Shown: one piece after another, positions 1,215 to 45,266 of the stretch
How positions within the stretch are numbered: position 1 is the first letter of the stretch
How the letters are laid out: the number at the start of each line of letters is the position of its first letter
NCBI RefSeq assembly: GCF_013911965.1
Contig: NZ_JACESE010000011.1
Location: forward strand, 86,370 to 150,369
DNA: 64,000 bases
Direction of reading: 5' to 3'
Origin: Phenylobacterium sp.
Lineage (GTDB): Bacteria; Pseudomonadota; Alphaproteobacteria; Caulobacterales; Caulobacteraceae
Notes under the pieces: model-generated
The model's input: the letters and a program-made list of their open reading frames with translations, nothing else
Told to the model about the DNA's origin: nothing
Databases searched by the model: none
Program-made: the position numbers and the translations under genes

Positions 1215-2069
1215 TCAGAGCATCGGCCGGCCGCCGGTGACGGCCACCGTTGCGCCCGAGACGTAGCTCGCCTCGTCCGAGGCCAGGAGCACATAGACCG
1301 GTGCGACTTCCTTGGGCTGGCCCGGCCGCTTCATCGGGGTGTTGGCCCCGAACTGCCTCACCTTCTCGGGCGGCATGGTGGCCGGGATCAGCGGGGTCCA
1401 GATCGGACCCGGCGCGACGCAGTTCACCCGCACCCCCTTCTCGGCGAGCATCTGCGCCAGACCTGCGGTGAAGTTCTGGATGGCGCCCTTGGTGGTCGCA
1501 TAAGGCAGCAGGGAGGGATTGGGATCGTCCGCGTTGATGGAGGTGGTGTTGATGATCGCCGACCCCGGCTTCAGGTGCGGCAGGGCCGCCTTGGCCAGGT
1601 GGAACATGGCGTGGATGTTGACCTGGAAGGTCCGCGCCCAGGCCTCCTCGCTGATCTCGTCGAGGCTCTTGTAGGTCGCCTGCTCGGCGGCGTTGTCGAC
1701 CAGCACGTCGAGCCGACCGAATTCGCTGACGGTCTTCTCCACCAAGGCGCGGCAATGCGCCGGGTCGGCAAGGTCGCCGGGCAGCAAGAGGCAGCGACGT
1801 CCCGCCGTCTCCACCCAGCGCCGGGTCTCCTCGGCGTCGTCGTGCTCGTTGAGATAGCCGATCGCGACGTCTGCGCCCTCCCGCGCGAACGCGATGGCCA
1901 CGGCCCGCCCAATGCCGCTGTCCCCGCCGGTGATCAGGGCTGCCTTGCCTGCCAGGCGGCCCGATCCCTTGTAGGACTGCTCGCCGTGGTCGGGCTTGGG
2001 CTCCATCTGTGACGTCGTCCCCGGCGGGGTTTGGCTCTGGTCGGGGAACGGCGGCTGGGGCTCGGTCAT
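1215..2069 (-). CDS. SDR family oxidoreductase (YghA-like), 284 aa
   Basis: A classical short-chain dehydrogenase with a hydrophilic N-terminal extension of about 45 residues rich in Pro and Gln, as in the YghA/GsiB-associated stress SDRs. The NAD(P)-binding motif TGGDSGIGRA follows the extension, NNAAEQ-like DNAAEQ replaces NNAG, and the catalytic Ser and Tyr-x-x-x-Lys are in NTTSINADD and YATTKGA. I chose the ATG at 2069 because GGAGG lies 6 bases upstream; the frame stays open much further but has no such site. It is divergent from groES. A GAAAC-N17-CGTT element 30 to 55 bases upstream suggests control by the general stress sigma factor EcfG. Substrate unknown. Confidence 0.85.
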   Translation of the reverse strand: MTEPQPPFPDQSQTPPGTTSQMEPKPDHGEQSYKGSGRLAGKAALITGGDSGIGRAVAIAFAREGADVAIGYLNEHDDAEETRRWVETAGRRCLLLPGDLADPAHCRALVEKTVSEFGRLDVLVDNAAEQATYKSLDEISEEAWARTFQVNIHAMFHLAKAALPHLKPGSAIINTTSINADDPNPSLLPYATTKGAIQNFTAGLAQMLAEKGVRVNCVAPGPIWTPLIPATMPPEKVRQFGANTPMKRPGQPKEVAPVYVLLASDEASYVSGATVAVTGGRPML

Positions 2070-2100
2070 CTTGGCCTCCGAGTGGAACGGACCAGCGCAA

Positions 2101-2126
2101 AACGTAGGGCTGGGCGACGGGGTTTC
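2101..2126 (-). promoter_or_regulatory. Candidate EcfG-type promoter of the SDR gene
   Basis: Read on the minus strand this is GAAAC-N17-CGTT, one mismatch from the alphaproteobacterial EcfG consensus GGAAC-N16/17-CGTT. The same GAAAC-N17-CGTT form recurs at 10952 and 20729, each ahead of a stress-type gene, which makes chance less likely. Confidence 0.45.
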
Positions 2127-2158
2127 GCGGAACTCCACTTGGCCTGCACTGTCTAGAC

Positions 2159-2176
2159 GGTGCACTGTGGTGCACC
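2159..2176. promoter_or_regulatory. Dyad GGTGCA-N6-TGCACC between SDR and groES
   Basis: A perfect inverted repeat with 6-base arms around CTGTGG. The 5-base core GTGCA-N6-TGCAC recurs exactly at 23502 and imperfectly at 20759 and 44547, always in promoter regions. It is a candidate operator of an unidentified regulator; the small XRE protein encoded at 10081 is one possibility. It is not a CIRCE element. Confidence 0.45.
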
Positions 2177-2224
2177 ATCGGAGCCCGCCGCAAGCAACGT
2201 CACCGCACGAGTACTTCCTTTTGC

Positions 2225-2249
2225 GGAACTTTGCCGCTTCGCCGACGTT
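2225..2249 (+). promoter_or_regulatory. EcfG-type promoter of groESL
   Basis: GGAAC at 2225-2229 and CGTT at 2246-2249 with a 16-base spacer match the consensus of the general stress sigma factor EcfG (SigT in Caulobacter) exactly. It lies about 120 bases upstream of groES. No CIRCE element and no convincing RpoH promoter were seen between the SDR gene and groES. Confidence 0.7.
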
Positions 2250-2367
2250 TCGCGCGCGAGGGGCCGGCCGGGCTGACATGGCGCAGCTGGCGCGCCGCCC
2301 TTTCGGCTGAACTTTAAGAGGATGAAGGGGCTGGGCCCCTGGGCCCGGCGGAGGAACGGAGGCTGGA

Positions 2368-4297
<1,930 letters not shown>

Positions 4298-4399: not shown

Positions 4400-6133
4400 T
4401 CAGGGCGAACGCGCCACCGCCTCCAGGCCTTGTTCCGGCTGAGGCGGCAGCAGGATGCCGGCCTCGCTGAGATCGGCCAGCATGGTGCGGGCGATCTCGC
4501 TCTCCCCCATCACCACCCGGTCCGCGCCGCTCGCCAGGAGACGGTCGGTCTGCTCCTCCGAATGGGCCCTGGCCACGATGCGAAGCTGAGGATTGAGGGC
4601 GCGGGCGCGGGTGACGATCTCGCCGCTCTCGAATCCGTCGGGGATCGCCAGGACGAGGCAGACGGCGGTCTTGGCGCCGGCCGCCAGTAGCACCTCCTCA
4701 CGCGTCGCGTTCCCCAGGATCGCAATCTCAGCGTTGCGACGCAGGGCTTCGACCCGCTCGATGTCGGTCTCGATGACCGCCGCCTTCACGCCGTCCCGGT
4801 CGAGGGCCTCCTTGATCCGCCGGCCGACGCGGCCGTAGCCCACCACGATCACATGTCCGGCCAGTTCGCTCTGGTGAGGGGCGGCGATATCGATCTTGAG
4901 CGGCTGGTCGCCCAGGTCCCGAATCGGGGTGCGCCCGAGCCGCCTCGCCCGCATTTCCGTGGCCAGCGAGAAGACCGCGGGGTTGAGCAGGATCGAGCCG
5001 ATGGCGCCTGCCAGCACAAGGTCGCGCGCCTCCTCCGGCAGCAGGCCGAGGTTCTGGGACATGGAGGTGAGGATGAAGGAGAACTCGCCGATCTGGGCGA
5101 GGCTCGCGGCGATGAGCACCGCCGTGTCCTGCGGGTGGCGGAAGGCGCGCACGATCAGGAAGGCGGCGACCGACTTGCCCACGACGATGGTGAGCACCGT
5201 CGCCAGCACTGCAAGCGGCCGCTCGAGCAGGGTCCGGGGGTCGAACAGCATGCCGACCGAGACGAAGAACAGCACCGCAAAGGCGTCGCGGAGCGGAAGG
5301 ATGTTGTCGCCCGCCTTATGGCTGAGTTCCGACTCCTTGAGGATCATGCCGGCGGCGAAGGCCCCGAGGGCGAAGGAGACGTCGAACAGCTTGGCGGCGC
5401 CATAGGCGACGCCCACCGCCATGCTGAGGACGGTCAGGGTGAAGAGTTCACGCGACCCGAGGCTGGCGACCTTGGCCAGCGACCAGGGGATCACTCGGCG
5501 GCCGACGAGGATCATCAGGGCGACGAAGGCGGCCAGCTTGCCGAAGGTCGCGGCGAGCGACAGCCCCACGCCGCCATGCTCGGCGAACACGTCGGGGCGG
5601 CCGCCCGGCAAGGCCCCGGCGATCACGGGAAGGAACACCAGGGCGGCCACCATGACCAGGTCCTCGATGACCAGCCAGCCGACCGCGATGTGGCCGCTTC
5701 GGGTGTCCAGCAGCTGGCGCTCCTCGAGCGCGCGGACGAGGACGACCGTGCTCGCCACCGAAAGGGCGAGGCCGAATGTGAGGCCGCTGGCGAGCGGCCA
5801 GCCCATCCCCAGCGCCAGTCCTGCGCCGAGCAGGGTCGCGACGACAATCTGAGCGATCGCGCCCGGCAGCGCGATGCTCTGGACCTTGACGAGATCGCGA
5901 TAGGAGAAGTGCAGCCCCACCCCGAACATCAGCAGGATGACGCCGATCTCGGCTAGTTCGGAGGCCAGCTCCGGATTGGCCGTGAAGCCGGGGGTGGACG
6001 GGCCCAGCGCGACGCCGGCCAGCAGATATCCCAGGATCGGCGGCAGGCGCAGCCGGCCGGCGATGAGTCCCAACACCGACGCCCCGACGAAAGCCAGGGT
6101 AAGGGTGGCGATCAGGGGCGTCTCGTGCAGCAT
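4400..6133 (-). CDS. CPA2 cation:proton antiporter with RCK domain (KefB/YbaL type), 577 aa
   Basis: About twelve hydrophobic segments fill residues 5-390 in the CPA2 monovalent cation:proton antiporter pattern, including LVIEDLVMV near 155 with the acidic pair used in ion exchange. A TrkA-N/RCK domain follows from about residue 426, with the nucleotide-binding motif VVGYGRVGRR. Proteins of this type extrude K+ or Na+ in exchange for H+ and acidify the cytoplasm during electrophile or oxidative stress. KefB/YbaL homologues are standing members of transmissible heat-resistance loci. It lies downstream of the degP-like gene on the same strand, 70 bases apart. Confidence 0.9.
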   Translation of the reverse strand: MLHETPLIATLTLAFVGASVLGLIAGRLRLPPILGYLLAGVALGPSTPGFTANPELASELAEIGVILLMFGVGLHFSYRDLVKVQSIALPGAIAQIVVATLLGAGLALGMGWPLASGLTFGLALSVASTVVLVRALEERQLLDTRSGHIAVGWLVIEDLVMVAALVFLPVIAGALPGGRPDVFAEHGGVGLSLAATFGKLAAFVALMILVGRRVIPWSLAKVASLGSRELFTLTVLSMAVGVAYGAAKLFDVSFALGAFAAGMILKESELSHKAGDNILPLRDAFAVLFFVSVGMLFDPRTLLERPLAVLATVLTIVVGKSVAAFLIVRAFRHPQDTAVLIAASLAQIGEFSFILTSMSQNLGLLPEEARDLVLAGAIGSILLNPAVFSLATEMRARRLGRTPIRDLGDQPLKIDIAAPHQSELAGHVIVVGYGRVGRRIKEALDRDGVKAAVIETDIERVEALRRNAEIAILGNATREEVLLAAGAKTAVCLVLAIPDGFESGEIVTRARALNPQLRIVARAHSEEQTDRLLASGADRVVMGESEIARTMLADLSEAGILLPPQPEQGLEAVARSP

Positions 6134-6203: not shown

Positions 6204-7652
6204 TCAGCTCGTCAGCCGCAGCGGCACGAACAGGCTCCGCCCCTCACGCCACACGCGCACCAGCACCGAAGGCCGGCCTTGGCGCCGCGCCGCATCGATC
6301 GCCTCGCGGACATCGGCCGGCGCTGCGACGCTGCGCTCGCCCACACGGTCGATCACGTCGCCGGCGCGGAGCCCCTTCTCAGCGGCGTCCGAGCCTGGCG
6401 AGACCGCGTCGATGACGACGCCGCGCGCCGTCGCCGGCAGCCGGTATTGCGTGCGGGCCGCCTGGTCGAGCGGGCGCAGGGTCAGGCCGAGGCTCGCCGC
6501 GTCCGCCGGATTGACCACGCCGGGCGCATCATCGGCGGGCCGGCGCCCGGCCCGCAGCTCCAGGGTCTGGCGACGGCCTTCGCGCCAGATCTCCAGCCGC
6601 AGCCGGTCGCCCTCGCGGGCGGCGCCGACGCGCCGGGTCAGGTCGGACGACGAGGTCAGCTCCTGGCCGTTCAGGCTGAGGATCGCATCGCCCGCGCGCA
6701 GGCCGGCCAGGTCGCCGGGCCCGCCCGGGGTCACCTCGGCCACCAGGGCGCCCTTGCGGCCTGGAATGCCGAGGCTCTCGGCGATCTCCGGCGTGAGGTT
6801 CTGCACCATGGCGCCGATGTAGCCGCGGACGATCGAACCGCCGGAGATGAGCTGCTTGGTGATGCGGTCGGCGATCTCGGCGGGAATGGCGAAGCCGATG
6901 CCGACCGAGCCGCCCGAGGGCGAGAAGATGGCCGTGTTGACGCCGATCACCCGGCCGTAGACGTCGAAGGTCGGACCGCCGGAGTTGCCTCGGTTGATGG
7001 GGGCGTCGATTTGCAGGTAGTCCACATAGGCCTCGCCGATGTCGCGGCCATAGGCCGAGACGATGCCCGAGGTGGCGGTGCCGCCGAGGCCGAAGGGATT
7101 GCCCATGGCGATCACCCAGTCGCCGACCCGCGGCCGCGCGTTGGTCTCGAACGTCACATAGGGGAAGTTCGAGCCCTCGACCTTCAGCACCGCCAGGTCC
7201 GTCAGCGGATCGCGGCCAATCACGCGCGCCTCGAGCTCGCGCCCCTCGTTGGTGCGCACGCTCACCTTGGTGGCGTTCTCCACCACATGGTTGTTGGTGA
7301 CGATGTAGCCGGTCGGCGTGATGAAGAAGCCCGAGCCCGACACCCGCGCATTCGGCAGCGACGGCGTCCCGTTGTTGCCGTCCGGCGCCCCGGGGAATCC
7401 GAAGAAGAACGGGAAGCCGGGGAACAGCTGCGGCAGGTTCGGGCGGGCCGGAGCGCTGCGGGTCACGTCGATGGAGACCACGGCGGGCGCGACGCGCTGG
7501 ACGATATCGGCAAAGCTCGACGGGACGCCGGCCGGCAGATTGCGCGCCGGTTGGGCCGCGGCCGCCGGGGCGGTCAGCGGACCCACGCCGCCTGCGGCCA
7601 GCGCGGCGGCGAGGGCGACAGAACAAAGCAGGCGCGATTGGCGCTTAAGCAT
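6204..7652 (-). CDS. Periplasmic serine protease, DegP/HtrA family, 482 aa
   Basis: A signal peptide covers about residues 1-33 (Lys-Arg start, Ala-rich core, cleavage near AAAAQ). The trypsin-like domain has the triad His122 (TNNHVVENA), Asp152 (DPLTDLAVLK) and Ser224 (NRGNSGGPT). Two PDZ domains follow, near 290-370 and 395-480. The enzyme degrades or refolds damaged envelope proteins. A Gly/Pro/Phe-rich linker (PGFPFFFGFPG) near residues 78-88 is the LA-loop-like segment. degP homologues are typical of heat-resistance loci. A minus-strand terminator lies just upstream, so it either has its own promoter or depends on readthrough. Confidence 0.92.
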   Translation of the reverse strand: MLKRQSRLLCSVALAAALAAGGVGPLTAPAAAAQPARNLPAGVPSSFADIVQRVAPAVVSIDVTRSAPARPNLPQLFPGFPFFFGFPGAPDGNNGTPSLPNARVSGSGFFITPTGYIVTNNHVVENATKVSVRTNEGRELEARVIGRDPLTDLAVLKVEGSNFPYVTFETNARPRVGDWVIAMGNPFGLGGTATSGIVSAYGRDIGEAYVDYLQIDAPINRGNSGGPTFDVYGRVIGVNTAIFSPSGGSVGIGFAIPAEIADRITKQLISGGSIVRGYIGAMVQNLTPEIAESLGIPGRKGALVAEVTPGGPGDLAGLRAGDAILSLNGQELTSSSDLTRRVGAAREGDRLRLEIWREGRRQTLELRAGRRPADDAPGVVNPADAASLGLTLRPLDQAARTQYRLPATARGVVIDAVSPGSDAAEKGLRAGDVIDRVGERSVAAPADVREAIDAARRQGRPSVLVRVWREGRSLFVPLRLTS

Positions 7653-8808: not shown

Positions 8809-9324
8809 TTAGCCCTTGCTGATCGGGATCCTCCGGACGCCCTCCTGCTGGGCCTTGGACTTCGGAAGGGTGACCGTCAGGACGCCCTTCTTGAAGTTGG
8901 CCTTGATCGCATCCTCGTCGATGGCGACAGGCACCGGCACCACCCGCTCGAAGCGGCCATAGTAGTGCTCGCTGTAGTGCCGATCCTTGTCCTCGACATC
9001 GGAGCGCTTCTCGCCCCGCAGGACCAGGACGCCGTCTTCGAACACCACGTCGACGTCGTTTTCATCCATGCCCGGCAGCTCGGCCGAAACGCGGATGGTC
9101 TTGGCGTCCTCGGCCACCTCGACGCTGGGCCAACTGGCGGAGCGGCCCAGGATGGAGCCCCCGAAGTCGCGGAAGACGTCGTCGAAGAGGCGGTTCACCT
9201 CTCGATGAAGGGTGAGGAACGGATGGGTTTCCTCGTCGCGACGAGAGGTCGTGGTGAGCGCGCCCTCGTGCGGACGATGGTCATGCTCATGCCGTCCCCA
9301 AGGGATCAGATCACGAAGTTGCAT
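8809..9324 (-). CDS. Small heat shock protein, Hsp20/alpha-crystallin family, 171 aa
   Basis: An N-terminal arm with the HPFLTLHREVNRLFDDVF segment is followed by an alpha-crystallin domain from about residue 63. It contains the family features ELPGMDENDVDV, LRGEKRSD and the GVLTVTLPKSK strand, and ends in the I-x-I-type tail RRIPISKG that locks oligomers. It holds unfolding proteins for refolding by ATP-dependent chaperones. It is class C-like, close to the sHsp encoded at 44691 (both share LHRE-NRLFDDVFR). It lies 73 bases downstream of a class-A sHsp gene and could be co-transcribed from its promoter. Confidence 0.93.
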   Translation of the reverse strand: MQLRDLIPWGRHEHDHRPHEGALTTTSRRDEETHPFLTLHREVNRLFDDVFRDFGGSILGRSASWPSVEVAEDAKTIRVSAELPGMDENDVDVVFEDGVLVLRGEKRSDVEDKDRHYSEHYYGRFERVVPVPVAIDEDAIKANFKKGVLTVTLPKSKAQQEGVRRIPISKG

Positions 9325-9397: not shown

Positions 9398-9874
9398 TCA
9401 GTGGGTCTTCTGCTCCGTCTCGCCGGAGCCGATGGCGGACTGGCCCGAACCGGTGATCTCGATCCTCTTCGGCTTCAGGGCCTCCGGGATCTCCCGCACC
9501 AGCTCGAGGGTCAGCAGGCCGTTCTCCAGGCGCGCGTTCTGCACGCGCACATGGTCGGCGAGCTCGAAGGTCCGACGGAACGGCTGCTGGGCGATGCCGC
9601 GATAGACGACCTCGCCGTCCTCCTGCACCTCCTGCGGCCGGCCGCTGACGGTCAGCCGGTTGGGTTCGGAGACGATCTCCAGATCGCCGTCGCGGAAGCC
9701 CGGCACCGCCAGAACGATGCGGTAGTGATCGCCGTCGGCCTGCACGACATTGTAGGGAGGCCAGTTCAGGCCAGGGACCGAGCCGCTCATCGCACGGTCC
9801 ATCAGGCTCAGCGCGCTGTCGACGCTCGGCATGGGCCGATAGCCGGACATCGGCGTCATAGTGTTCATCCTCAT
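9398..9874 (-). CDS. Small heat shock protein, IbpA-like class A, 158 aa
   Basis: The alpha-crystallin domain covers about residues 32-125, starting at WPPYNVVQADGDHYRI and containing LAVPGFRDGDLEI, SEPNRLTVSGR and ENGLLTLELVREIPEA, followed by KPKRIEI. This is the IbpA/HspA class found under ROSE control in rhizobia. I chose the ATG at 9874 (MRMNTM) because GGAGGA lies 8 bases upstream; the frame is open to 9949. An RpoH-type promoter and a leader able to fold over the ribosome-binding site precede it (see those entries). Its product should protect aggregating proteins, probably together with the other sHsps and Lon or FtsH. Confidence 0.93.
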   Translation of the reverse strand: MRMNTMTPMSGYRPMPSVDSALSLMDRAMSGSVPGLNWPPYNVVQADGDHYRIVLAVPGFRDGDLEIVSEPNRLTVSGRPQEVQEDGEVVYRGIAQQPFRRTFELADHVRVQNARLENGLLTLELVREIPEALKPKRIEITGSGQSAIGSGETEQKTH

Positions 9875-9962
9875 GGTCCAAGTCCTCCGTTGAGCAACAT
9901 GGGTTTGAGGAGCGCCGGACACCGCCGGCGCCCGCCGCCGGACCTTCATCAGCGTCCGGCAA
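9875..9962 (-). promoter_or_regulatory. Candidate ROSE-type RNA thermometer in sHsp leader
   Basis: The roughly 88-base GC-rich leader has a 7-bp hairpin (9954-9960 with 9937-9943) and a final hairpin in which TCCTC (9907-9911) can pair with GAGGA (9883-9887) of the Shine-Dalgarno sequence. The loop carries UUGCU (9893-9897) six bases before AGGA, the U(U/C)GCU arrangement that defines ROSE elements. Melting of this hairpin at high temperature would free the ribosome-binding site. The sHsp gene at 15343 has the same UUGCU-N6-AGGA layout. Confidence 0.6.
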
Positions 9963-28383: not shown

Positions 28384-28385
28384 GT

Positions 28386-36028: not shown

Positions 36029-36273
36029 GGCGGCGCGACGGTCTCCTCATCGCGCCGATCCTCCTGGTGGGCGTGTTGCTGGCGAGCCTGATCGTCAGTC
36101 CCAGGCCGCTTTCCGAGCCGATGCTCTGGGCGGTGACGGCCCTCTCCGGCGCCGCGATCCTCGCCTATGCAGGCCTTGCCTGGCGTTCGCGCGGCCAGGT
36201 GGCGGACGAGGCGCGCGGCGGTCGGCCTTTCGAGCGCCGATCGCGGGGTTCCCCGAATGACGGCGACGCCTAG
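36025..36273 (+). CDS. Small membrane protein with two helices, 82 aa
   Basis: Two hydrophobic stretches (GLLIAPILLVGVLLASLIV at about 6-24 and LWAVTALSGAAILAYAGLAW at 34-53) are followed by a charged tail. No family recognised. It overlaps the XRE stop codon (ATGA), so it is translated with the regulator, and it converges with the response-regulator gene with a four-base overlap. Confidence 0.65.
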   Translation: MRRRDGLLIAPILLVGVLLASLIVSPRPLSEPMLWAVTALSGAAILAYAGLAWRSRGQVADEARGGRPFERRSRGSPNDGDA

Positions 36274-36638
36274 CCTGCGTCCTTGCCGAGCGCCTTCCCC
36301 ACGACCTCCACCAGGTCATCGATCCGGAACGGCTTCTGCAGGAAGACCTCGTAGCGGTCGAACCGGGCGCGCAGCGCGGTCTCGGGGACGGCGCTCATCA
36401 TGATGATCGGCACGTGGGCGAGATCATCCATCGCCTTCACCTGAGCTGCGAAGGTCGGGCCGTCCATGATGGGCATCATGAAGTCGCTGATGATCAGGTC
36501 CGGCTTCTCCTGGCCGAGACGCTCCAGCGCCTGGGCCCCGTGCGCGGCCTTGAGGACCCGGTAGCCCTCGTCCTCGAGCGCGGTCAGGATCAGGTCCGCC
36601 ACGCCGAATTCATCCTCGACCACGAGAACCGTCTTCAC
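36270..36638 (-). CDS. Single-domain response regulator, 122 aa
   Basis: A CheY-like receiver with VLVVEDEFGVADLI, the phospho-acceptor in IISDFMMPIMDG (Asp near residue 52), IIMMSAV and LQKPFRIDDL. It lies nine bases after the KaiC-like ATPase gene on the same strand and should be co-transcribed. In KaiC-family modules of proteobacteria a receiver and a PAS kinase often accompany the ATPase, as here. Confidence 0.9.
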   Translation of the reverse strand: MKTVLVVEDEFGVADLILTALEDEGYRVLKAAHGAQALERLGQEKPDLIISDFMMPIMDGPTFAAQVKAMDDLAHVPIIMMSAVPETALRARFDRYEVFLQKPFRIDDLVEVVGKALGKDAG

Positions 36639-36647: not shown

Positions 36648-38150
36648 TCACGCTCTTGGCGGCAACGGCGCCGGACGCGGTTCACTCGCCGATTCATGGG
36701 CGAAGCCGGTCATCAGGGCCTCGGCGCCGACGAACGGCTGGCCGATGTGGATGCCGCTGTCGTCGATCGTATACTCCCGAAGGGCGGGATCGAAGTCGCT
36801 GTCGCGCATCTTCACGATGGCGAGGATCCGCGCCATGCGGGACTGCCGCTCGACGAACCGCATGTAGAGCAGGTTCTCAACCAGGCTAGAGATGTTGTCG
36901 ATCGGCACTTCCACCTGGGCGCCGAACAGGTCGCGCGTCTCCATGGTGTAGAGGGTCGTCACGCCCAGGACCCGCAGCTCGTTGGCGAGGGCGGCGAAGA
37001 AGCGCGAGATCCGCGACGGCTCCGAGGCGGCCGCGATGAAACCTCCGAGCCCATCCACCAGCAGCCGCTTCACCTTGCGCCGGCGCACGGCGTCGACCAG
37101 CCGATGGCCCAGCGCGTCGAACACCGGCTCGGTCGGCGCCTGCCACAGGATCTCGACGGCGCCGCTCGCGGTGAGGGCGTCGAGGTCGACGCCGATCCGT
37201 TTGGCCTTCACCTTCAGGCGCGGCGGCGTCTCGTAGAAGCCGAACAGAAGGCCCGGTTCTTCGGGCGTGCTCGCGCCGATGAACTGAATGCCGATCGTCG
37301 TCTTGCCCGCGCCGGAGGGGCCGATCACCGCCGAGGTGGAGGTGGTGCGAAGACCGCCGCCGATCACCGCATCCAGCGACGGCGCACCCGTGGTGTAGCG
37401 GTCCTCGCCGACGTCGTCGTGCCGGCTGGGCGTGGCGTAGAGCGCCTCGAAACGCGGATGGACGTGATAGCCGTCGCTGTCGATCGAGTAGGCGTGGCGA
37501 CCCTCCAGGAAGGCGCTGGAGCGCAGCTTCACGACTTCGAGGTAGCGTTCGGTGCGATCGCCCGAAGGCCTGCGCACCATCTGCACGATCCCGTCCACCA
37601 TGGTCCGCTCCGGGCGGCTGGCGCGGCCGTCGTCATTGGTCAGCAGGAAGGTCGTGCAGCCGGCGGCGGCGACCTGGCCCTGCAGGTCGTGGATGAACTT
37701 CTTGAAGTCGCGCTCGCTCGAGGCGGAGGCCTGGGTGGCGAGGAAGCCGTCCAGCACCAGCATGGTCGCCTTGCGGCCCTTGATCTCCCGGCGCAGCAGG
37801 TTGAGCAGGCCCGGCAGGCCGTCCTCCTCCAGCGTCGTAAAGCCGCTCACATAGACGATCTGGTCGGATACGGCGGCCTGGTCGAAGAAGCTCAAAGTGC
37901 CGAGCTGCTGCAGCAGGCGCGAGTGGCTTTCGGCCAGGAGGGTCACGTACAGGACCCGGCCACCGCCCTCGATATGCTTGTAGCAGATCTGATTGGCGAG
38001 GATCGTCTTGCCCGAACCGGGATCGCCCTGGACGATATACACGCCGCCTTCGACGAAGCCGCCGTTCAAGACAGTATCCAGCCCCGGCACTCCGCTGGCC
38101 GTACGTGGCACTGTTTCTGGCGCCTGCGCCTCTCCCATCCCTTGCCCCAT
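36648..38150 (-). CDS. KaiC-like dual RecA-domain ATPase, 500 aa
   Basis: Two KaiC/RecA-type domains: the first with VPGLDTVLNGGFVEGGVYIV and Walker A GDPGSGKT (residues 42-49), the second with GAPSLDAVIGGGL and Walker A GPSGAGKT (around 275-280), each followed by a Walker B. KaiC forms hexamers and autophosphorylates in cyanobacterial clocks; relatives in other bacteria act in stress and signalling. No KaiB gene is seen. Length is close to KaiC (about 520). The frame is open to ATG 38195, but a promoter-like GGAAC-N16-AGTT at 38164 and a short leader favour ATG 38150; ATG 38138 is also possible. A response regulator follows and a PAS kinase is divergent. Confidence 0.85.
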   Translation of the reverse strand: MGQGMGEAQAPETVPRTASGVPGLDTVLNGGFVEGGVYIVQGDPGSGKTILANQICYKHIEGGGRVLYVTLLAESHSRLLQQLGTLSFFDQAAVSDQIVYVSGFTTLEEDGLPGLLNLLRREIKGRKATMLVLDGFLATQASASSERDFKKFIHDLQGQVAAAGCTTFLLTNDDGRASRPERTMVDGIVQMVRRPSGDRTERYLEVVKLRSSAFLEGRHAYSIDSDGYHVHPRFEALYATPSRHDDVGEDRYTTGAPSLDAVIGGGLRTTSTSAVIGPSGAGKTTIGIQFIGASTPEEPGLLFGFYETPPRLKVKAKRIGVDLDALTASGAVEILWQAPTEPVFDALGHRLVDAVRRRKVKRLLVDGLGGFIAAASEPSRISRFFAALANELRVLGVTTLYTMETRDLFGAQVEVPIDNISSLVENLLYMRFVERQSRMARILAIVKMRDSDFDPALREYTIDDSGIHIGQPFVGAEALMTGFAHESASEPRPAPLPPRA

Positions 38151-38163
38151 AGAACTGCACCCC

Positions 38164-38188
38164 AACTGAGCGGCGGACATTGCGTTCC
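38164..38188 (-). promoter_or_regulatory. Possible EcfG-type promoter of the KaiC-like operon
   Basis: Minus strand GGAAC-N16-AGTT: exact -35 part, one mismatch in the -10 part. If used, transcription starts close to ATG 38150, giving a short leader. Confidence 0.35.
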
Positions 38189-38286
38189 GCCGCATCCGCC
38201 TGCAAGGTTTTCTGGCCGACCTCGAGGGAAGCCGGCCGGGCGGAGGACGGGCCTCAGCGTGTGAGCTTATCCGGACGAGGCAAGCG

Positions 38287-39450
38287 GTGGGAGAGCTTCG
38301 GGCTCAGCCATGCGGTCCGGCCGCTGTGGTGGTGGAGAACGCCACCCTGGCGGCGGGGCTCTCCTGCGCGCCGATTCCGGTCACCCTGCTGGACGCCACC
38401 GCGCCGGGACGGCCGATCGTCTACTGCAATGAGGCCTTCTGCCAGCTGACCGGCTACCCGATCGAGGACGTCATCGGGCGGGGCCTCAATCTTCTCAGCC
38501 TGCCGGCCGACGAGGGCCGCGACCTCGACGCCGTGGTGTCGCTCGCCATGCCGAAGCGAGAGCTACAGATGCGGCGGCGCGACGGGCGGCCGTTCTGGAA
38601 TGCGTTGTCGGCTGGCCCCGTCCGCGACGAAGCCGGGCGCGTCACCCATGTCGTGGTCACCCACACCGACATCACCGAACATCGCCAGCGCGACGAGGCG
38701 CTCCAGAGCGCCCTCACCCACGCCGAGCGGGCGAACTGGGCCAAGAGCCGCCTGATCGCCGTCGCCGGCCACGACCTGCGCCAGCCGTTGCAGACCATCG
38801 TCGCCGCCCTCGACCTCCTGCGACGTGAAACGGACCTGAGCGCCCGTGGCCGCCGGCTGTTGGGCCATGCGGAGATCGCCGCCGTCGACCTCGACGAGGA
38901 GCTCAAGGCGCTGGCCCAGGTCTCCGAGGTCAAACAGGACCTGGCGCCGGTGATCGAGGATTTTGCGCTGGACGAGATCCTGGACGGCGTCATCGCGGCC
39001 TGGCGGCCGCGCGCGGAGCATAAGGGGCTGAGCCTGCGCACCGCCTGCACCCACGTGGCGGTCCGCAGCGACCGAGCCATGCTGCGGACCATCCTGCGCA
39101 ACCTGGTCGGCAACGCGGTCAAGTACACCTTCGAGGGCGGCGTGCTGATCGGCGTTCGCCGCCGCGGCGGGGGTCTCGCCATCGAGGTCTGGGACACCGG
39201 CGCCGGCGTTCCGCCGCATATGCTCGAACGCATTTTCGAAGCCTTCGAGCGCGCCGATTCGACCGGCAACGAGGGTCTCGGGCTCGGGCTCTGGATCGTC
39301 CAGAAGACCGCCCAGTTGCTCGGCCACACCATAGAGGTGCGCTCGGTCGCCGGCCGGGGATCGTGCTTCAGCATCCGCCTGGAGCGCGGCGATCCGGCCG
39401 CAGCGCGAGAGAACGCCGGCGCCGCCCAGGTGGGCGGCCTCGAACCCTAG
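38287..39450 (+). CDS. PAS-domain sensor histidine kinase, 387 aa
   Basis: A PAS domain at about 28-130 (IVYCNEAFCQLTGYPIEDVI, GRGLNLL, NALSAGPVRDEAGRVTHVVV) of the LOV-like type, but the flavin-binding Cys of the G-R-N-C-R motif is absent, so it is not a LOV photoreceptor. The dimerisation domain has the phospho-acceptor His162 in AVAGHDLRQPLQT, and the ATPase domain has NLVGNAVKYTFEGG and DTGAGVPPHMLERIFEAFER. Cytosolic; no membrane segment. It starts with GTG 38287. It is divergent from the KaiC-like gene and is the likely kinase for the adjacent receivers. Confidence 0.88.
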   Translation: MGELRAQPCGPAAVVVENATLAAGLSCAPIPVTLLDATAPGRPIVYCNEAFCQLTGYPIEDVIGRGLNLLSLPADEGRDLDAVVSLAMPKRELQMRRRDGRPFWNALSAGPVRDEAGRVTHVVVTHTDITEHRQRDEALQSALTHAERANWAKSRLIAVAGHDLRQPLQTIVAALDLLRRETDLSARGRRLLGHAEIAAVDLDEELKALAQVSEVKQDLAPVIEDFALDEILDGVIAAWRPRAEHKGLSLRTACTHVAVRSDRAMLRTILRNLVGNAVKYTFEGGVLIGVRRRGGGLAIEVWDTGAGVPPHMLERIFEAFERADSTGNEGLGLGLWIVQKTAQLLGHTIEVRSVAGRGSCFSIRLERGDPAAARENAGAAQVGGLEP

Positions 39451-40548: not shown

Positions 40549-41631
40549 ATGAAGATTGCTCAGGTCGCTCCCCTCTACGAGGCGGTCCCGCCGCGGCTGT
40601 ACGGCGGGACGGAGCGTGTGGTGGCTCACCTGACCGACGCGCTGGTGGCGCTCGGCCACGAGGTGACCCTGTTCGCCAGCGCCGAGGCGCAGACCCGCGC
40701 CCGGCTCGTGCCGGTGCGCGATCAGGCGATCCGCCTCGACCCGGCCCCGCTGAAGTCCGACGTCGCCGCGCACCTGGCGCAGCTCGCCGAGGTGAAGCGG
40801 CGCGCCGACGACTTCGACGTCATCCACTTCCACACCGACCTGCTGCACTTCCCGATCTTCGCCGACCTGGCGGAGAAGACGGTCACGACCCTGCACGGGC
40901 GCCTCGACCTAAAGGACCTGCCGGAGGCCTACCGCCGCTGGCCGGCCTTCCCGCTGGTCTCGATCAGCGACGACCAGCGCAAGCCGTTGCCCTTCGCCAA
41001 CTGGATCGGGACCGTGCACCACGGCTTCCCGCCGGAGCACTACACCTTCCACCTGCGCAGCGAGGGCTATCTGGCCTTCCTGGGCCGCATCTCGCCGGAG
41101 AAGCGCCCGGACCGGGCGATCGAGATCGCGCGCCGCGCCGGCAAGCGGCTGAAGATCGCCGCCAAGGTGGACGCCGCCGACCGCGCCTACTTCAACGAGG
41201 TCATCGAGCCGCTGATCCGCGACGAGCCCCTGGTGGAGTTCATCGGCGAGATCGGCGATGCGGAGAAATCCGCCTTCCTGGGCGGGGCCGACGCCCTGCT
41301 CTTCCCCATCGACTGGCCGGAGCCCTTCGGCCTGGTGATGATCGAGGCCATGGCCTGCGGCACGCCGGTCATCGCCTGGAACTGCGGCTCGGTTCCGGAG
41401 GTGGTGGAGCCCGGCGTCACCGGCTTCATCGTCGAGGACTTGGACGGGGCGGTGGCCGCCGTCGGCCGGATCGGCGAACTGCGGCGCACCGGGGTGCGCG
41501 CACGTTTCGAGACCCGCTTCTCCGCCCTCACCATGGCGCGCCACTACGCCGCGCTTTACGCCGGCCTGCGCCAGCCCGAGCCTGGACCGGTCTCGCGCGC
41601 GGCGGCTCAAGTGAAAGCCGTCGCCGCGTGA
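40549..41631 (+). CDS. Glycosyltransferase family 4 protein, 360 aa
   Basis: A GT-B fold enzyme: N-terminal YGGTERVVAHLTDALVALGH (donor-loop region), DVIHFHTDLL, then the C-terminal GYLAFLGRISPEKRPDRAIE and the E-x7-E motif region PFGLVMIEAMACGTPVIAWN typical of GT4. It transfers a sugar from a nucleotide donor to an acceptor that cannot be told. It is followed after 19 bases by an amylo-1,6-glucosidase gene, a pairing often seen in proteobacterial stress and trehalose or glycogen clusters. Confidence 0.9.
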   Translation: MKIAQVAPLYEAVPPRLYGGTERVVAHLTDALVALGHEVTLFASAEAQTRARLVPVRDQAIRLDPAPLKSDVAAHLAQLAEVKRRADDFDVIHFHTDLLHFPIFADLAEKTVTTLHGRLDLKDLPEAYRRWPAFPLVSISDDQRKPLPFANWIGTVHHGFPPEHYTFHLRSEGYLAFLGRISPEKRPDRAIEIARRAGKRLKIAAKVDAADRAYFNEVIEPLIRDEPLVEFIGEIGDAEKSAFLGGADALLFPIDWPEPFGLVMIEAMACGTPVIAWNCGSVPEVVEPGVTGFIVEDLDGAVAAVGRIGELRRTGVRARFETRFSALTMARHYAALYAGLRQPEPGPVSRAAAQVKAVAA

Positions 41632-41650
41632 GGAAGCTGGGGGACGAAGC

Positions 41651-43810
41651 ATGGACGACCTGGCGCTTGCGCCGGAGGCGCATTTCGAGGCGGCGAGCGA
41701 GCGCGAGCGGCGCGCGCCCGACCGCCTCTTCACCCTCAAGGAAGGCGACGTCTTCCTGGTCTGCGACGCGTTCGGCGACATCCACGGGGTCGCCGACGGG
41801 CTCTTCCAAAACGACACGCGGCAGCTCTCCCGCCTGACCCTGCGGCTCGACGGGAGCGCCCCTGCCCTGCTGAGCAGCGCCGTGGGTCGGGACAACGTCA
41901 TCTTCACCGCCAACGCCACCAATCGGCCGCTCACGCCCATTGGCGCGGTCACGACGCCGGAAGGCGTGGTGCACCTGGAGCGCAAGCGGCTGATCTGGGA
42001 CGGGCGGCTCTTCGAGCGGATCCGGTGCGTCAACTACGGGGACGCTCCGGCCACGCTGCCGCTCGACTTCAGCTTCGACGCCGACTTCAAGGACATGTTC
42101 GAGGTTCGCGGCCAGACGCGCGCGCACCGCGGCCATCGTGCCTCGCCCACGGTCCTGCCGATGGGCGTCAAGTTTCAGTACGAAGGACTCGACGGGAACC
42201 GCCGCGACTGCGTCATCGCGTTCTCGGAGCGGCCGACGCACCTCGACGCCCACCACGCCAGCATCCGCCTGGAGCTCGATCCGCGGACGCCGAAGGACGT
42301 CTACCTCGAGGTGGGGCCGGAGGGGGGACCGCCGCCCGCCGCGCGACGCTTCCGGCGCGCGAGCCTGCTGGCCAAGGCCGCGATGCGGCGGCGCCTGCGC
42401 CGCGGCGGCCGGGTCCATACCTCGGGGCGGCTGTTCAACGCCTGGCTCGACAAGTCGCGGGCCGACCTGGCGCTGCTCACCACGGATCTCGCCACCGGTC
42501 CCTACCCCTACGCCGGCATCCCTTGGTTCTCCACGACCTTCGGCCGCGATGCGATCATCACAGCCTGGCAGCTGCTCTGGCTCGATCCGAGCCTTGCCAA
42601 GGGCGTGCTGGCCTACCTCGCGGCGACCCAGGCCGACGAGCACTCGAGCTTCCGCGACGCGGCGCCGGGCAAGATCCTGCACGAGGCCCGACGCGGCGAG
42701 ATGGCCGCACAAGGCGAGGTGCCGTTCGGCCGCTACTATGGCGGCGTCGACACCACCTGCCTGTTCGTCGCTCTGGCGGCGGCTTACGCGGAGCGGACCG
42801 GCGACCGCGCCTTCCTGGACCAGATCTGGCCTGCGCTCCTGGCCGCCACCGGCTGGATGGACAGCTTCGCCAAGTCGGACCCGCTGGGCCTCATCCGTTA
42901 CGCGCGCGGGGCCGACACGGGCCTCTTGAACCAGGGCTGGAAGGACAGCCACGACTCCATCTTCCATGCGGACGGCCGAACCCCCGATGGGCCGATCGCC
43001 CTGGTCGAGGTGCAAGGCTACGCCTACGCCGCCTACTGCGGGATGGCGCGGCTCGCGGCCACGCGGTTCGACCGCGACCACGCCGAGGGATGGCGTCGCC
43101 GGGCCGAGCAGATCCGCGAGGCGGTGGAATCGCGGTTCTGGATGCCAGAGGCCGGCTTCTACGGCATCGCCCTCGACGGCGAGAACCAGCTCTGCCGGGT
43201 GAAGGCCTCCAACGCCGGACACCTACTGTTCGTCGGCCTGCCCTCGCCCGAGCGCGCCCAGGCGGTGATGCGAACCCTTCTGGGCCCAGGCTTCACCAAC
43301 GGGTGGGGGCTTCGCACCCTGGCCAGCGACCAGCCCCGCTACAACCCCATGTCCTACCACAACGGCTCGGTCTGGCCGCACGACACCGCGCTCTGCGCCA
43401 TAGGCTTCCGGCGCTATGGCGGCGCCGACGCCGTGCCGCGCCTGCTCTCGGCGCTGTTCGAGGCGGCGGTGCACTTCGACATGCGGCTGCCCGAGCTCTT
43501 CTGCGGCTTCCCGCGCCATGCCGGCGAGCCGCCGGTCGCCTATCCCGTCGCCTGCCTGCCGCAGGCCTGGGCCGCGGCGTCCGTGTTCGGCGTCCTGCAG
43601 GCCTGCCTGGGCCTGCACGTGGACGGCTGGCGTGACGAGCTCCACGTGCGCTCGCCACGACTGCCCTTGGGCATCGGCGAGCTCCGGCTCGAGAACCTGC
43701 CGGTCGGCGACCGTCGCCTCGACCTGGTGTTCCGCGAGGCCGGCGGGCGGGTGATGGTCCTCCCCGGCCGCAACGAAGAACAAGGCGTTCCGTTGATCAC
43801 CCACACCTGA
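41651..43810 (+). CDS. Amylo-alpha-1,6-glucosidase (glycogen debranching family), 719 aa
   Basis: An N-terminal beta-sandwich (RLFTLKEGDVFLVCDAFGDI, DGLFQNDTRQLSRLTL) and a C-terminal (alpha/alpha)6 barrel (GIPWFSTTFGRDAIITAWQL, LNQGWKDSHDSIFHADG, NPMSYHNGSVWPHDTALCA) identify the GDE family. The acidic residues in GRDAII and WKDSHDS are the likely catalytic pair. It removes alpha-1,6-linked glucose or acts on related glucans. The product would feed glycolysis together with the accessory phosphoglycerate mutase. The upstream EcfG-type promoter suggests use of glucan stores under stress. Confidence 0.9.
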   Translation: MDDLALAPEAHFEAASERERRAPDRLFTLKEGDVFLVCDAFGDIHGVADGLFQNDTRQLSRLTLRLDGSAPALLSSAVGRDNVIFTANATNRPLTPIGAVTTPEGVVHLERKRLIWDGRLFERIRCVNYGDAPATLPLDFSFDADFKDMFEVRGQTRAHRGHRASPTVLPMGVKFQYEGLDGNRRDCVIAFSERPTHLDAHHASIRLELDPRTPKDVYLEVGPEGGPPPAARRFRRASLLAKAAMRRRLRRGGRVHTSGRLFNAWLDKSRADLALLTTDLATGPYPYAGIPWFSTTFGRDAIITAWQLLWLDPSLAKGVLAYLAATQADEHSSFRDAAPGKILHEARRGEMAAQGEVPFGRYYGGVDTTCLFVALAAAYAERTGDRAFLDQIWPALLAATGWMDSFAKSDPLGLIRYARGADTGLLNQGWKDSHDSIFHADGRTPDGPIALVEVQGYAYAAYCGMARLAATRFDRDHAEGWRRRAEQIREAVESRFWMPEAGFYGIALDGENQLCRVKASNAGHLLFVGLPSPERAQAVMRTLLGPGFTNGWGLRTLASDQPRYNPMSYHNGSVWPHDTALCAIGFRRYGGADAVPRLLSALFEAAVHFDMRLPELFCGFPRHAGEPPVAYPVACLPQAWAAASVFGVLQACLGLHVDGWRDELHVRSPRLPLGIGELRLENLPVGDRRLDLVFREAGGRVMVLPGRNEEQGVPLITHT

Positions 43811-43848
43811 CGGACAGGCGAGAGGGACCCACCAGAGCGAGCGGAGAC

Positions 43849-44163
43849 ATGCGCGTCAGAGTTTGGATCGAGGGCCCGGACGGGCCCGCCCGGGACTTCG
43901 AGCTCGTGAGCCCGCCACGCGTCGGCGAACGCATCTGCATCGCCACGTCGCACGGGCTCGAGGAGGGCGTGGTGGAGACGATCACCTGGCAGCTGCAGGC
44001 CGTCGAACCCACGACCACGGAACTGCTCCTCGAAGGCGAACCGCCTGGCTCCGTCAGCCTCGTCCAGGTCGTCTGCCGCCGACCGACGGAGGCCCTGCAC
44101 CGGGTGTTGGCCGCCTCCGCCGACGCCGAGCAGGCGTCTCTTCCCTCTCCGTCGTCCAATTAG
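43849..44163 (+). CDS. Small beta-rich protein of unknown function, 104 aa
   Basis: Not recognised. The sequence (VRVWIEGPDGPARDFELVSP, VGERICIATSHGLEEGVVET, TITWQLQAVEPTTTELLLEG) looks like a small beta-barrel, with alternating hydrophobic strands; no membrane segment. The start is ATG 43849, with AGCGGAGA upstream. It lies 38 bases after the debranching enzyme and may be its operon partner. It overlaps the convergent CxxC gene by four bases. Confidence 0.6.
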   Translation: MRVRVWIEGPDGPARDFELVSPPRVGERICIATSHGLEEGVVETITWQLQAVEPTTTELLLEGEPPGSVSLVQVVCRRPTEALHRVLAASADAEQASLPSPSSN

Positions 44164-44459
44164 GAGCGGTCCTCCGGCCACGGCGCGCTCAGCACTTCGT
44201 GCCAGCTCATGTCGGGCGCCTTGCCCTGGAAGTTGACGAAGCCGACGCAGCCCAGGCGTTTGCAGCGCTCCTTGCGGTTCCAGAGGCTGAAGTCCGCGCC
44301 CTTCACACGCGCGATCAGCCTCAGGTTCACGCGGAAGAGCAGGCCGCACGCTTCACACTTGGAGTGTACGTCCCAGCCTAACCGGATCATGTCCCCCACG
44401 CTCTCGCAACGCCGCCGACGCATCGCGATCGGTATGCGATCCGGATTCCGACTCCCCAT
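44160..44459 (-). CDS. Small zinc-ribbon-like protein, 99 aa
   Basis: Two cysteine clusters, CEACGLLFRVN near residue 35 and CKRLGCVGFVNF near residue 65, resemble a four-Cys zinc ribbon. The pattern W-D-V-H-S-K-C-E-A-C and W-N-R-K-E-R-C is common in Caulobacterales plasmid proteins of unknown function. Start ATG 44459 is preceded by AGGAGTGGAG; an internal ATG gives a shorter form beginning MIRLGWDV. It may be a DNA-binding accessory protein. Confidence 0.6.
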   Translation of the reverse strand: MGSRNPDRIPIAMRRRRCESVGDMIRLGWDVHSKCEACGLLFRVNLRLIARVKGADFSLWNRKERCKRLGCVGFVNFQGKAPDMSWHEVLSAPWPEDRS

Positions 44460-44546
44460 GCTCCACTCCTGACCCGTGGGAACAGAAGCAGAACGAGCAA
44501 GGATTGGAAAGGTGACCGGCGGGTCCGGCTCGGCCTTGACCCGGCC

Positions 44547-44562
44547 GTGCATTTTATTGCTC
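44547..44562. promoter_or_regulatory. GTGCA-N6-TGC-type dyad upstream of the fifth sHsp gene
   Basis: GTGCA-TTTTAT-TGCTC, closely matching the minus-strand reading of the dyad at 23502 (GTGCA-CTTTAT-TGCAC). It lies about 130 bases upstream of the sHsp start, just after a CTTGAC. Confidence 0.35.
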
Positions 44563-44690
44563 GTCCGCTGCAACTCGCCGGGCAGACCAGCGCTTCTCCA
44601 GACGAGCTGTGGCGAGCAGCTCGCTCATGGAACCGCGTGTCGCTGGCGCCTGATCCAGCGACCTTCGCTCTGGCCAATGGAGACGCCCAG

Positions 44691-45266
44691 ATGTCGCAAT
44701 CCCTCACCCCGTTCGGAGGCGCCGATCCTCTGCTTTCGCTTCATCGCGAGATGAACCGCCTGTTCGACGATGTCTTCCGCGGCTCGCGCAGCTTCGCGCC
44801 GCCCACGAGCCAGGGCGGCGGCGTGGCGGCCACCTTCAACGCCAGCATGGACGTCTCCGAAACCGACAAGGAAGTGCGCGTCTGTGTGGAGCTGCCGGGC
44901 GTCGACGAGAAGGATATCGACGTCTCGCTGGAGAACGACCAGCTCACCATCCGTGGCGAGAAGAAGTTCCAGCAGGAGAAGGGTGACGAGAAGACCAACT
45001 ACCATTTCGTGGAGCGTGGCTATGGCCGCTTCCAACGCGCCCTCCGTCTGCCCTTCCAGGCCAATCCTGATGAGGTGAAGGCGACCTTCCACAACGGCGT
45101 GCTGACCGTCACCGTGCCGAAGAGCGCCGAGCAGAGCCGTTCACGGCGGATCCAGATTCAAGGCTCGAGCGGTCAGTCGTCGTCTTCGGCCCAAGGCCAG
45201 GACCAACAAACCGCGGCTGGCCCGGCGAGCGGGCAGGAAGGCTCCGGCCAAGGCGCCACGCACTAA
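44691..45266 (+). CDS. Small heat shock protein, class C-like with Gln/Ser-rich tail, 191 aa
   Basis: The alpha-crystallin domain covers about residues 50-145: FNASMDVSETDKEVRVCVEL, PGVDEKDIDVSLENDQLTIR, GEKKFQQEK and HNGVLTVTVPKS, followed by the RRIQIQG I-x-I motif. A 35-residue Ser/Gln/Gly-rich tail follows, unusual and likely disordered. The N-terminal LHREMNRLFDDVFRGSR arm matches the sHsp encoded at 8809. ATG 44691 is set by TGGAG 10 bases upstream. A hairpin follows at 45323. Confidence 0.93.
   Translation: MSQSLTPFGGADPLLSLHREMNRLFDDVFRGSRSFAPPTSQGGGVAATFNASMDVSETDKEVRVCVELPGVDEKDIDVSLENDQLTIRGEKKFQQEKGDEKTNYHFVERGYGRFQRALRLPFQANPDEVKATFHNGVLTVTVPKSAEQSRSRRIQIQGSSGQSSSSAQGQDQQTAAGPASGQEGSGQGATH

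Follow-up and report, generated by a model that had tools for sequence, protein, structure and literature searches.

A Phenylobacterium stress-gene plasmid related to that of P. zucineum HLK1, predicted to carry a second proteostasis regulon and distinct from the transmissible locus of stress tolerance

The stretch of Phenylobacterium sp. DNA analysed here (64,000 nucleotides; the window) forms the right end (C3:86370-150369) of contig NZ_JACESE010000011.1 (C3), which is 150,369 bp long, is related to the plasmid of Phenylobacterium zucineum HLK1 and carries stress genes next to genes for conjugation. An earlier note had described the region as a stress-survival island related to the transmissible locus of stress tolerance (tLST) on a conjugative replicon. 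Codon-based gene calling gave 71 genes in the window, and 60 reading frames were scanned against Pfam; genes given below without a family, score or other source were assigned by these scans.

Among the stress genes, GroES (2368..2661, + strand; Cpn10, 117 bits) and GroEL (2678..4297, +; Cpn60_TCP1) are followed by a CPA2 K+/H+ antiporter of the YbaL type (4400..6133, −; Na_H_Exchanger and TrkA_N), which at 675 bits lies slightly below the YbaL cut-off of 700 (NF007950). Proteases are represented by a DegP/Do-family periplasmic enzyme (6204..7652, −; TIGR02037, 432 against a cut-off of 416), an FtsH of the accessory alphaproteobacterial type (10982..12814, −; TIGR01241, 780 against 600) and Lon (25542..27920, −; TIGR00763, 868 against 608). 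Hsp20 proteins (PF00011) are encoded at 8809..9324 (−, 78 bits), 9398..9949 (−, 61 bits), 15343..15876 (+, 61 bits) and 44547..45266 (+, 89 bits; coding start about 44751), and a weak one adjoins Lon at 27917..28546 (−; 25.9 against the Pfam cut-off of 20.8). A glutaredoxin (23553..23846, −), an AhpC/TSA peroxiredoxin (23859..24623, −) and the thioredoxin TrxC (24776..25213, +; NF008229, 140 against 125) lie beside a protein with three BON domains (22759..23523, −) and a DUF308/HdeD-like membrane protein (22156..22743, −; PF03729) that reaches 69 of the 189 asked for by the HdeD model NF007577. Phosphate acetyl/butyryl transferase (15937..17499, +; PF01515; NF006045, 496 against 282; coding start probably 16231) overlaps with acetate/propionate kinase (17496..18845, +; PF00871, 322 bits). 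A divergent lyase of the fumarase/aspartase superfamily (20759..22153, +; Lyase_1, FumaraseC_C) stays below the NCBIfam fumarase cut-offs. It keeps the stretches GRTHLQDA and SSLPGKTNP, which we take to be motifs of this superfamily. Further to the right, a double-domain KaiC-like ATPase (36648..38195, −; PF06745, 205 bits), below the KaiC equivalog cut-offs, is accompanied by two response regulator receivers (34702..35088 and 36270..36638, both −) and a PAS histidine kinase (38287..39450, +). The earlier note had named five small heat-shock proteins, FtsH, a DegP-like protease, a YbaL/KefB-type antiporter, HdeD, thioredoxin and Lon, all of which the Pfam scans recover about where it had placed them, and the Pta-AckA, KaiC-like, BON, TrxC-type and fumarase-like genes that it added are present as well; its list had omitted GroES/GroEL (2368-4297), the glutaredoxin at 23553 and the peroxiredoxin at 23859.

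The cargo extends about 50 kb further to the left of the window on the same contig. An RpoH-type sigma factor (C3:34862-35818; sigma factor domains), 54% identical to an RpoH of the HLK1 plasmid, is encoded there together with ClpB (C3:60449-63055; TIGR03346, 1402 against 1232), YfdX (C3:59354-60286) and CbpM/CbpA (C3:66121-67367; both by domain scan) and a Crp/Fnr-type regulator (C3:67745-68317; start probably further upstream). According to the HLK1 annotation, this left part also includes BI-1, another (sixth) Hsp20, a KaiC-type ATPase, BON, a DegP-like protease, TerC, Dps and PEP carboxylase. Five of the eight Hsp20 genes of the genome (E<=0.001) lie on C3, which makes up 3.9% of it (binomial P 4.5e-6); of these five, the window holds four and the fifth is to its left, and the weak Hsp20 at 27917..28546 is outside the eight.

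Transfer, partition and replication genes fill the right end of the window, all on the minus strand: an LPD7-domain protein (45712..46818; PF18821), the coupling protein VirD4 (46828..48786; PF02534, 339 bits), VirB11 (48752..49750; PF00437; 95% to HLK1 virB11), VirB10 (49747..50973; PF03743), VirB9 (50970..51800; 99% to HLK1 virB9), VirB8 (51797..52477; PF04335), VirB6 (52802..53740; PF04610), VirB5 (53992..54747; PF07996), VirB4 (54744..57149; PF03135; 99% to HLK1), VirB3, VirB2 and VirB1 (57142..58519; 82-98% to the VirB3, TrbC/VirB2 and lytic transglycosylase of HLK1), ParB and ParA (60710..63020; SopB HTH and AAA_31/MerR) and the 3' part of a replication initiator (63741..64000). A relaxase of the MobA/VirD2 type (PF03432) is found outside the window at C3:31478-32503 and spans C3:30954-32503 together with a NikA/MobC-like accessory gene, so that relaxase, coupling protein and VirB channel genes are all present on C3; MOB-suite typing (MOBP, MPF_T, conjugative) is that of the HLK1 plasmid, not of C3. 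The virB/virD4 set had been called complete, and it does comprise VirB1-6, VirB8-11 and VirD4, followed by parAB as described, with VirB7 not identified. C3 is, as judged from its genes, a replicon that probably transfers itself by conjugation, and that it actually has done so is suggested solely by closely related copies in three species.

A LuxI acyl-homoserine-lactone synthase and a LuxR (58538..60074, −; Autoind_synth and HLK1 LuxR annotation) sit between virB1 and parB; the HLK1 counterpart is 89% identical, and from window position 58578 onward the region is 100% identical in contig C40 of the draft genome of another species (G006). The pair probably serves quorum control of transfer. 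A second VirB4 in the source genome (G000:C4:97911-100193), 56% identical to that of the plasmid, probably belongs to a second type IV system.

The first and last 26 bp of C3 are identical, and when this overlap is counted once, an initiator frame of 383 amino acids spans the join, its 5' part lying at the start of C3. The G006 contig C40 runs from C3:144947 through the end and on to C3:1-714. Because of the overlap, the frame across the join and the continuous contig of the other species, the sequence identifies C3 as a closed circular plasmid of about 150,343 bp. An assembly join between the stress part and the vir part, which the earlier note had named as a finding that would refute its reading, was rejected, since both lie on one contig and in a closed circle, in an order that HLK1 shares, and since one G006 contig runs from vir through the peptidase C26 gene.

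The HLK1 plasmid (NC_011143.1, 382,976 bp) was published in 2008 and is described as chaperone-rich, with nine Hsp20, GroESL, two DnaK-GrpE and two rpoH, and as carrying virB genes and FixLJ (PMC2529317). It covers 100% of window 1-25000 at 94.7% identity and 86% of 39001-64000 at 87.2%, and one of two places on it covers 61% of 25001-45300 at 83.0%. The longest alignment with C3 extends over 46.9 kb at 91.3% (blast pieces had to exceed 800 bases), and C3 860-11241 matches HLK1 371-383 kb at 81.5%; C3 20-58 kb was compared with HLK1 1-210 kb. The two collinear blocks are separate on HLK1 (about 70-117 kb and 2-28 kb). Beside the 2-28 kb block, a second copy of Lon, Hsp20, diacylglycerol kinase, ZIP, phosphoglycerate mutase and ATP-grasp genes carries the C3 gene order further, at about 80-81%, the Lon-Hsp20-ZIP-mutase block thus being present once on C3 and twice on HLK1, and HLK1 keeps vir beside the same Hsp20, glucosidase, ATP-grasp and Lon order. 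Common to both plasmids are the initiator (90% identity), ParA (91%), ParB (85%), LuxRI, virB/virD4 and the bulk of the stress genes, and VirB4 at 99% was found, besides the window, only in HLK1 (next best 76%). They differ in size (150 against 383 kb) and in chaperones, since ClpB is on C3 and no C3 protein matched HLK1 DnaK or GrpE; the KaiC/receiver/kinase module (window 34.7-39.5 kb) is matched no more than distantly on HLK1 1-150 kb, and nifJ lies on the HLK1 plasmid. A related initiator with related ParAB and, the KaiC module excepted, a collinear stress cargo place C3, on sequence grounds, in the replicon family of the HLK1 plasmid as its second closed member, a third being present in pieces in G006. 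A fixed chromosomal block is rejected for P. zucineum HLK1, where the block is on the plasmid, and is not supported by G006. Judged from titles and the opening lines of abstracts, the P. zucineum genome paper is the only one we found that deals with a plasmid of this kind.

Seven contigs of G006 cover 74,725 of the 150,369 C3 bases at a mean identity of 98.6% (range 94.1-100%; the lowest piece 3,994 bp), counting pieces over 90%, for which the queries were FtsH (protein) and three segments of C3 of 20 kb each. The pieces lie on short contigs, one of which holds parAB and the replication join, and another (G006:C22) has virB11, virD4, Hsp20, glucosidase, the KaiC module and the C26 gene, all in C3 order. 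As a control, 20 kb of the strain's own chromosome gave 46 listed pieces in G006 and HLK1 at 65-89% identity, paralogues and three plasmid ftsH matches included, and those in syntenic order (G006:C39; HLK1 3.72-3.73 Mb) reached 71-89%; in these DNA searches the best 40 of 530 to 1255 candidates per genome were scored. The plasmid pieces are hence far more alike between species than the host chromosomes, and because 94-100% stands against 65-89%, the comparison indicates recent movement of the plasmid between species. An FtsH of the window type (E<=1e-190) occurs in 4 of the 101 genomes of the genus, and in three of the 101 at >=97%. Two genes were tried as markers of the island and rejected: DUF5335 (20292..20642, −), present in 5 of 299 genomes of the family, since its other carriers (G093, G050 and G070) share just a few scattered proteins, and the fumarase-like lyase, which has three distant matches (29-31%) in a genome contig set from which close genomes may be missing.

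The kinship to tLST claimed for the region was examined at the level of proteins, DNA and an FtsH tree. The tLST core is given as dna-hsp20-clpG, with the disaggregase ClpG/ClpK (PMC8290217). A ClpK query of the strain's own genome returned Hsp100 copies on C32, C3 and C12, with no piece above 53%, and its only match on the plasmid is ClpB (47%), which scores 805 for ClpG and 768 for ClpK against an NCBIfam cut-off of 1900; ClpG/ClpK is thus absent. Identities to the tLST of E. coli pECO-6357 are 65% for FtsH, 48% for the Hsp20 at 44547..45266, 45% for thioredoxin, 41% for DegP, 34% for YfdX, 33% for KefB and 31% for HdeD. Alphaproteobacterial tLSTs, which themselves differ strongly from the reference tLST in most proteins, reach 71-74% for ClpG and 56-64% for HdeD and, where matched, 57% for thioredoxin, 39-44% for KefB and 88-89% for YfdX. 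At the DNA level, the window matches seven tLST loci (two enterobacterial, five alphaproteobacterial) with ftsH (72-78% over 1.1-1.5 kb) and otherwise over 363 bases at most, and so falls short of the conservation of >80% described for tLST islands (PMC8290217).

FtsH is the one clearly tLST-like protein of the plasmid by sequence, yet it falls outside the tLST clade. In a tree of 42 rows, from which matches under 400 amino acids had been dropped, it belongs to a clade of nine rows without tLST (100/100), seven tLST rows are in a separate clade of 11 (98/91), and the chromosomal FtsH, to which that of the window is 46-48% identical, stands apart (100/100). FtsH of the window type is found in 38 of 385 genomes of the class (E<=1e-205). 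Among 16 FtsH neighbourhoods fetched, two were true tLSTs; of five from the window's own clade, taken over 20 kb, four lack any other cargo gene and one has Hsp20 and thioredoxin. A further accessory FtsH, 59-60% identical to that of the window, occurs on the HLK1 plasmid (G166:C1:181128-182930) and on a 3.5-Mb contig (G074:C1:1253449-1255224), and the two form their own clade.

Compared with the tLSTs of E. coli pECO-6357 and K. pneumoniae J1, the plasmid is alike in that it provides, on mobile DNA, a second complement of genes for proteostasis, envelope and redox functions from shared protein classes, but it has no ClpG/ClpK and no dna-hsp20-clpG core, its FtsH is of another clade, it is far larger and has its own RpoH, and its HdeD, thioredoxin, KefB, DegP and YfdX reach only 31-45%. 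With the alphaproteobacterial tLSTs (the Methylorubrum extorquens AM1 megaplasmid, Limimaricola and Shinella plasmids, and the genomes G561 and G420) it shares the kind of host, an NDUS4-like protein, an Hsp20 set and FtsH, but not ClpG, and its HdeD remains at 31%. From sequence, the plasmid is thus tLST-like in its predicted function and not a tLST, and kinship to tLST was rejected on the ClpK search, the NCBIfam cut-offs, the protein and DNA comparisons and the tree, most shared classes being distant homologues with one Hsp20 as the exception. To call it a separate alphaproteobacterial version of the heat-resistance locus, as the earlier note did, would be misleading, since tLSTs with ClpG are described from alphaproteobacteria (PMC8290217) and since the P. 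zucineum plasmid, which has the greater part of these genes, was already sequenced in 2008 (PMC2529317). The NDUS4-like protein, of a complex I accessory family (PF04800), occurs in all five alphaproteobacterial tLST loci examined (L013, 10528-11130; L014, 5460-6020; L093, about 25.7 kb; L131, about 16 kb; L132, about 3 kb) as well as on this plasmid (window 7715..8401, −).

A count of dyads made without a prior model found CTTG-N17-CCTA over-represented on the plasmid, a motif that fits the form described for RpoH1/RpoH2 promoters, CTTGAA/CTTGCC-N15-16-CCTAT (PMC4843759). It occurs upstream of 6 of 109 C3 genes (mean of 0.10 in shuffles that keep base composition only), of none of 94 chromosomal genes (two contigs, 160 kb in all) and of 5 of 101 genes on 150 of the 383 kb of HLK1, a relative and not an independent sample; upstream stretches under 45 bases were dropped from these counts, and the listing of motifs on C3 took intergenic sites within 250 bases of a gene. 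The C3 sites precede rpoH itself, Hsp20, BI-1, the peroxiredoxin and two genes of unclear role (c26 and c49), and a longer upstream scan adds another Hsp20. Within the window they lie at 9972-9996, before the Hsp20 at 9398..9949, and at 24669-24693, before the peroxiredoxin. In HLK1 the two boxes are conserved before each of the BI-1 paralogues, while the spacers have diverged. A plasmid-borne rpoH and RpoH-type promoters before plasmid genes together form a putative RpoH regulon.

Boxes of the Fnr/FixK type (TTGA-N6-TCAA) precede 3 of 109 C3 genes (USP, YfdX and c62), 0 of 94 chromosomal genes and 11 of 101 genes on HLK1; the three on C3 lie in two intergenic regions, and no strict box is inside the window. 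On HLK1 1-150 kb such boxes precede rpoH, both dnaK, USP and YfdX, which suggests hypoxia-driven expression of chaperones in P. zucineum.

Taken together, we consider it probable (about 0.75) that the window is the cargo half of a closed Phenylobacterium plasmid of about 150 kb, of the HLK1 replicon family, and that this plasmid carries a transmissible second proteostasis regulon, the function of which we infer, and which is not a tLST. The plasmid would transfer itself by conjugation, with LuxI/LuxR beside virB suggesting control by cell density. Its RpoH, and probably the RpoH of the host too, would activate the RpoH-type promoters before the Hsp20, BI-1 and peroxiredoxin genes, and its Crp/Fnr-type regulator would act at the boxes before USP and YfdX and so couple protein protection to low oxygen or redox stress. 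The products, namely Hsp20 holdases, GroESL, ClpB with CbpA, FtsH, Lon, DegP, TrxC, glutaredoxin and peroxiredoxin, the K+/H+ antiporter and the acyl-phosphate enzymes, would improve survival when cells face heat, oxidative, pH or energy stress. Such a plasmid indicates that stress-survival cargo travels between alphaproteobacterial species together with conjugation genes and without ClpG, and that similar protein classes can therefore assemble independently on mobile DNA; with rpoH and matching promoters on one plasmid, it becomes directly testable whether mobile DNA can bring in a complete stress regulon together with its control. New here are the evidence for movement between species, the separation from tLST and the likely regulatory wiring, the chaperone-rich relative in HLK1 having been known since 2008. 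A more far-reaching version is tentative: that this is a self-transmissible second heat-shock regulon with its own sigma-32, matching promoters and an oxygen-responsive Crp/Fnr branch, by which a new host might gain in a single step a proteostasis programme with separate wiring, inducible by heat and hypoxia, and an alphaproteobacterial counterpart of tLST of independent origin in which extra copies of the host-type system replace the stand-alone disaggregase ClpG.

Several observations weigh against these readings. For most of the cargo neither an RpoH nor an Fnr site was detectable, and only two genes in the window have an RpoH-type promoter; of nine strict matches on C3, seven are upstream of genes (two of them of unclear role) and two are not; the shuffle preserves nothing beyond base composition, and HLK1 is a related plasmid; and EcfG-type promoters, also tried, are not enriched (4 of 109 on the plasmid, 4 of 94 on the chromosome). 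As to transfer, the claim of a conjugative replicon agrees with the relaxase, VirD4, VirB genes, closed circle and interspecies movement, while VirB7 and oriT were not identified on C3. In the search of the best 40 candidates, two parts of the window were not found at high identity in G006: about 15.4-26.6 kb, an 11-kb part with Hsp20, Pta/AckA, DUF5335, the lyase, HdeD-like, BON and redox genes and part of Lon, and about 49.7-58.5 kb (virB, about 9 kb), which are missing either from the plasmid of G006 or from its draft assembly. Finally, some proteins stand nearer to tLST than the rest: the Hsp20 at 44547..45266 is closer to tLST hsp20 (48%) than the Hsp20s of three alphaproteobacterial tLSTs are (34-37% for the best of each), DegP (41%) is as close as its counterpart in the Limimaricola tLST (40%), and NDUS4-like and orf11-like proteins are common to the plasmid and alphaproteobacterial tLSTs.

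These last points, with the shared classes (Hsp20, FtsH, HdeD-like, thioredoxin, antiporter, DegP, YfdX) and an FtsH closer to that of tLST (65%) than to the chromosomal one, are what a cargo related to tLST would explain, and the 48% Hsp20 raises its odds slightly. It is nevertheless quite unlikely, given that ClpG/ClpK is absent, that the nearer relatives of the FtsH mostly stand alone outside the tLST clade, that HdeD, thioredoxin, KefB and YfdX are below the values in true alphaproteobacterial tLSTs, and that DNA matches are confined to ftsH and short stretches. Of all the alternatives, the least probable is that the G006 matches are contamination, in which case they would say nothing of movement between species. 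The G006 draft consists of about 50 contigs, of which the seven with matches are short (6.1-20.4 kb), but the pieces range in identity from 94.1 to 100% over their length, unlike contamination by the source strain, G006 contamination is given as 0 (rounded), and HLK1, a finished genome, independently shows the plasmid relation.

A metabolic or hypoxia plasmid, whose chaperones belong to a low-oxygen regulon with heat tolerance being incidental, is a more serious rival, though on balance a doubtful one. The acyl-phosphate and fumarase-like enzymes, the pyruvate:ferredoxin oxidoreductase (nifJ) and FixLJ of HLK1 (for FixLJ, PMC2529317) and the Fnr/FixK boxes, those before rpoH and dnaK of HLK1 included, would fit it; C3, however, has just the three boxes, none of them strict in the window, and no C3 protein matched part of nifJ. 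Unlikely, too, is an ordinary accumulation of unrelated stress genes gained singly, in an arrangement without joint function. Many small units on both strands, the solitary FtsH relatives, the lyase with its few distant matches, and a KaiC module and an 11-kb part that are not common to all three plasmids could be read this way, but a single alignment with HLK1 extends over 46.9 kb, HLK1 itself holds two copies of one block in conserved order, and a shared promoter type recurs.

Further genes of the window are interspersed with this cargo. An SDR oxidoreductase (1215..2069, −; Pfam adh_short), 98% identical to an HLK1 plasmid protein, lies to the left of GroESL, and an AHSA1/SRPBCC protein (10412..10900, −; PF08327) and a DUF6491 protein (12855..13226, −) flank FtsH. 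Further on follow an RcnB-like protein (14138..14485, +), a Host_attach/baeRF family 12 protein (14553..15005, +), another SDR oxidoreductase (18893..19642, −) and a hypothetical protein (19648..20295, −) with 33% identity over 119 amino acids to tLST orf11. To the right of Lon and its Hsp20 are a diacylglycerol-kinase-like protein (28773..29672, −), a ZIP metal transporter (30142..30927, −), a histidine phosphatase/phosphoglycerate mutase (31045..31749, +; Pfam scan and HLK1 annotation), an ATP-grasp protein (31616..33133, +; coding start about 31835), a peptidase C26/glutamine amidotransferase (33138..33902, +) and an NADPH-dependent FMN reductase (33951..34550, +). A pair of glycosyltransferase 4 and amylo-alpha-1,6-glucosidase (40549..43810, +) lies between the PAS kinase and the last Hsp20.

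Most matches to enterobacterial plasmids are accounted for by the GroEL gene of the window: in the 30 of 851 records listed, plasmids from Klebsiella, Citrobacter, Acinetobacter and Escherichia, among others, have a groEL with about 75-77% identity to it, and window 12815-25000 is without a match in any of these genera. To the left of the window, PADLOC identified a short Argonaute and its restriction-nuclease-type partner at C3:48149-50976 (pAgo_I, 618 bits, and Aga_REase, 615 bits), and an IetS/IetA subtilase-ATPase defence pair and a PDC-S39 candidate at C3:54320-57659 and 51955-53718, so that by its predicted genes C3 carries an anti-phage region as well.

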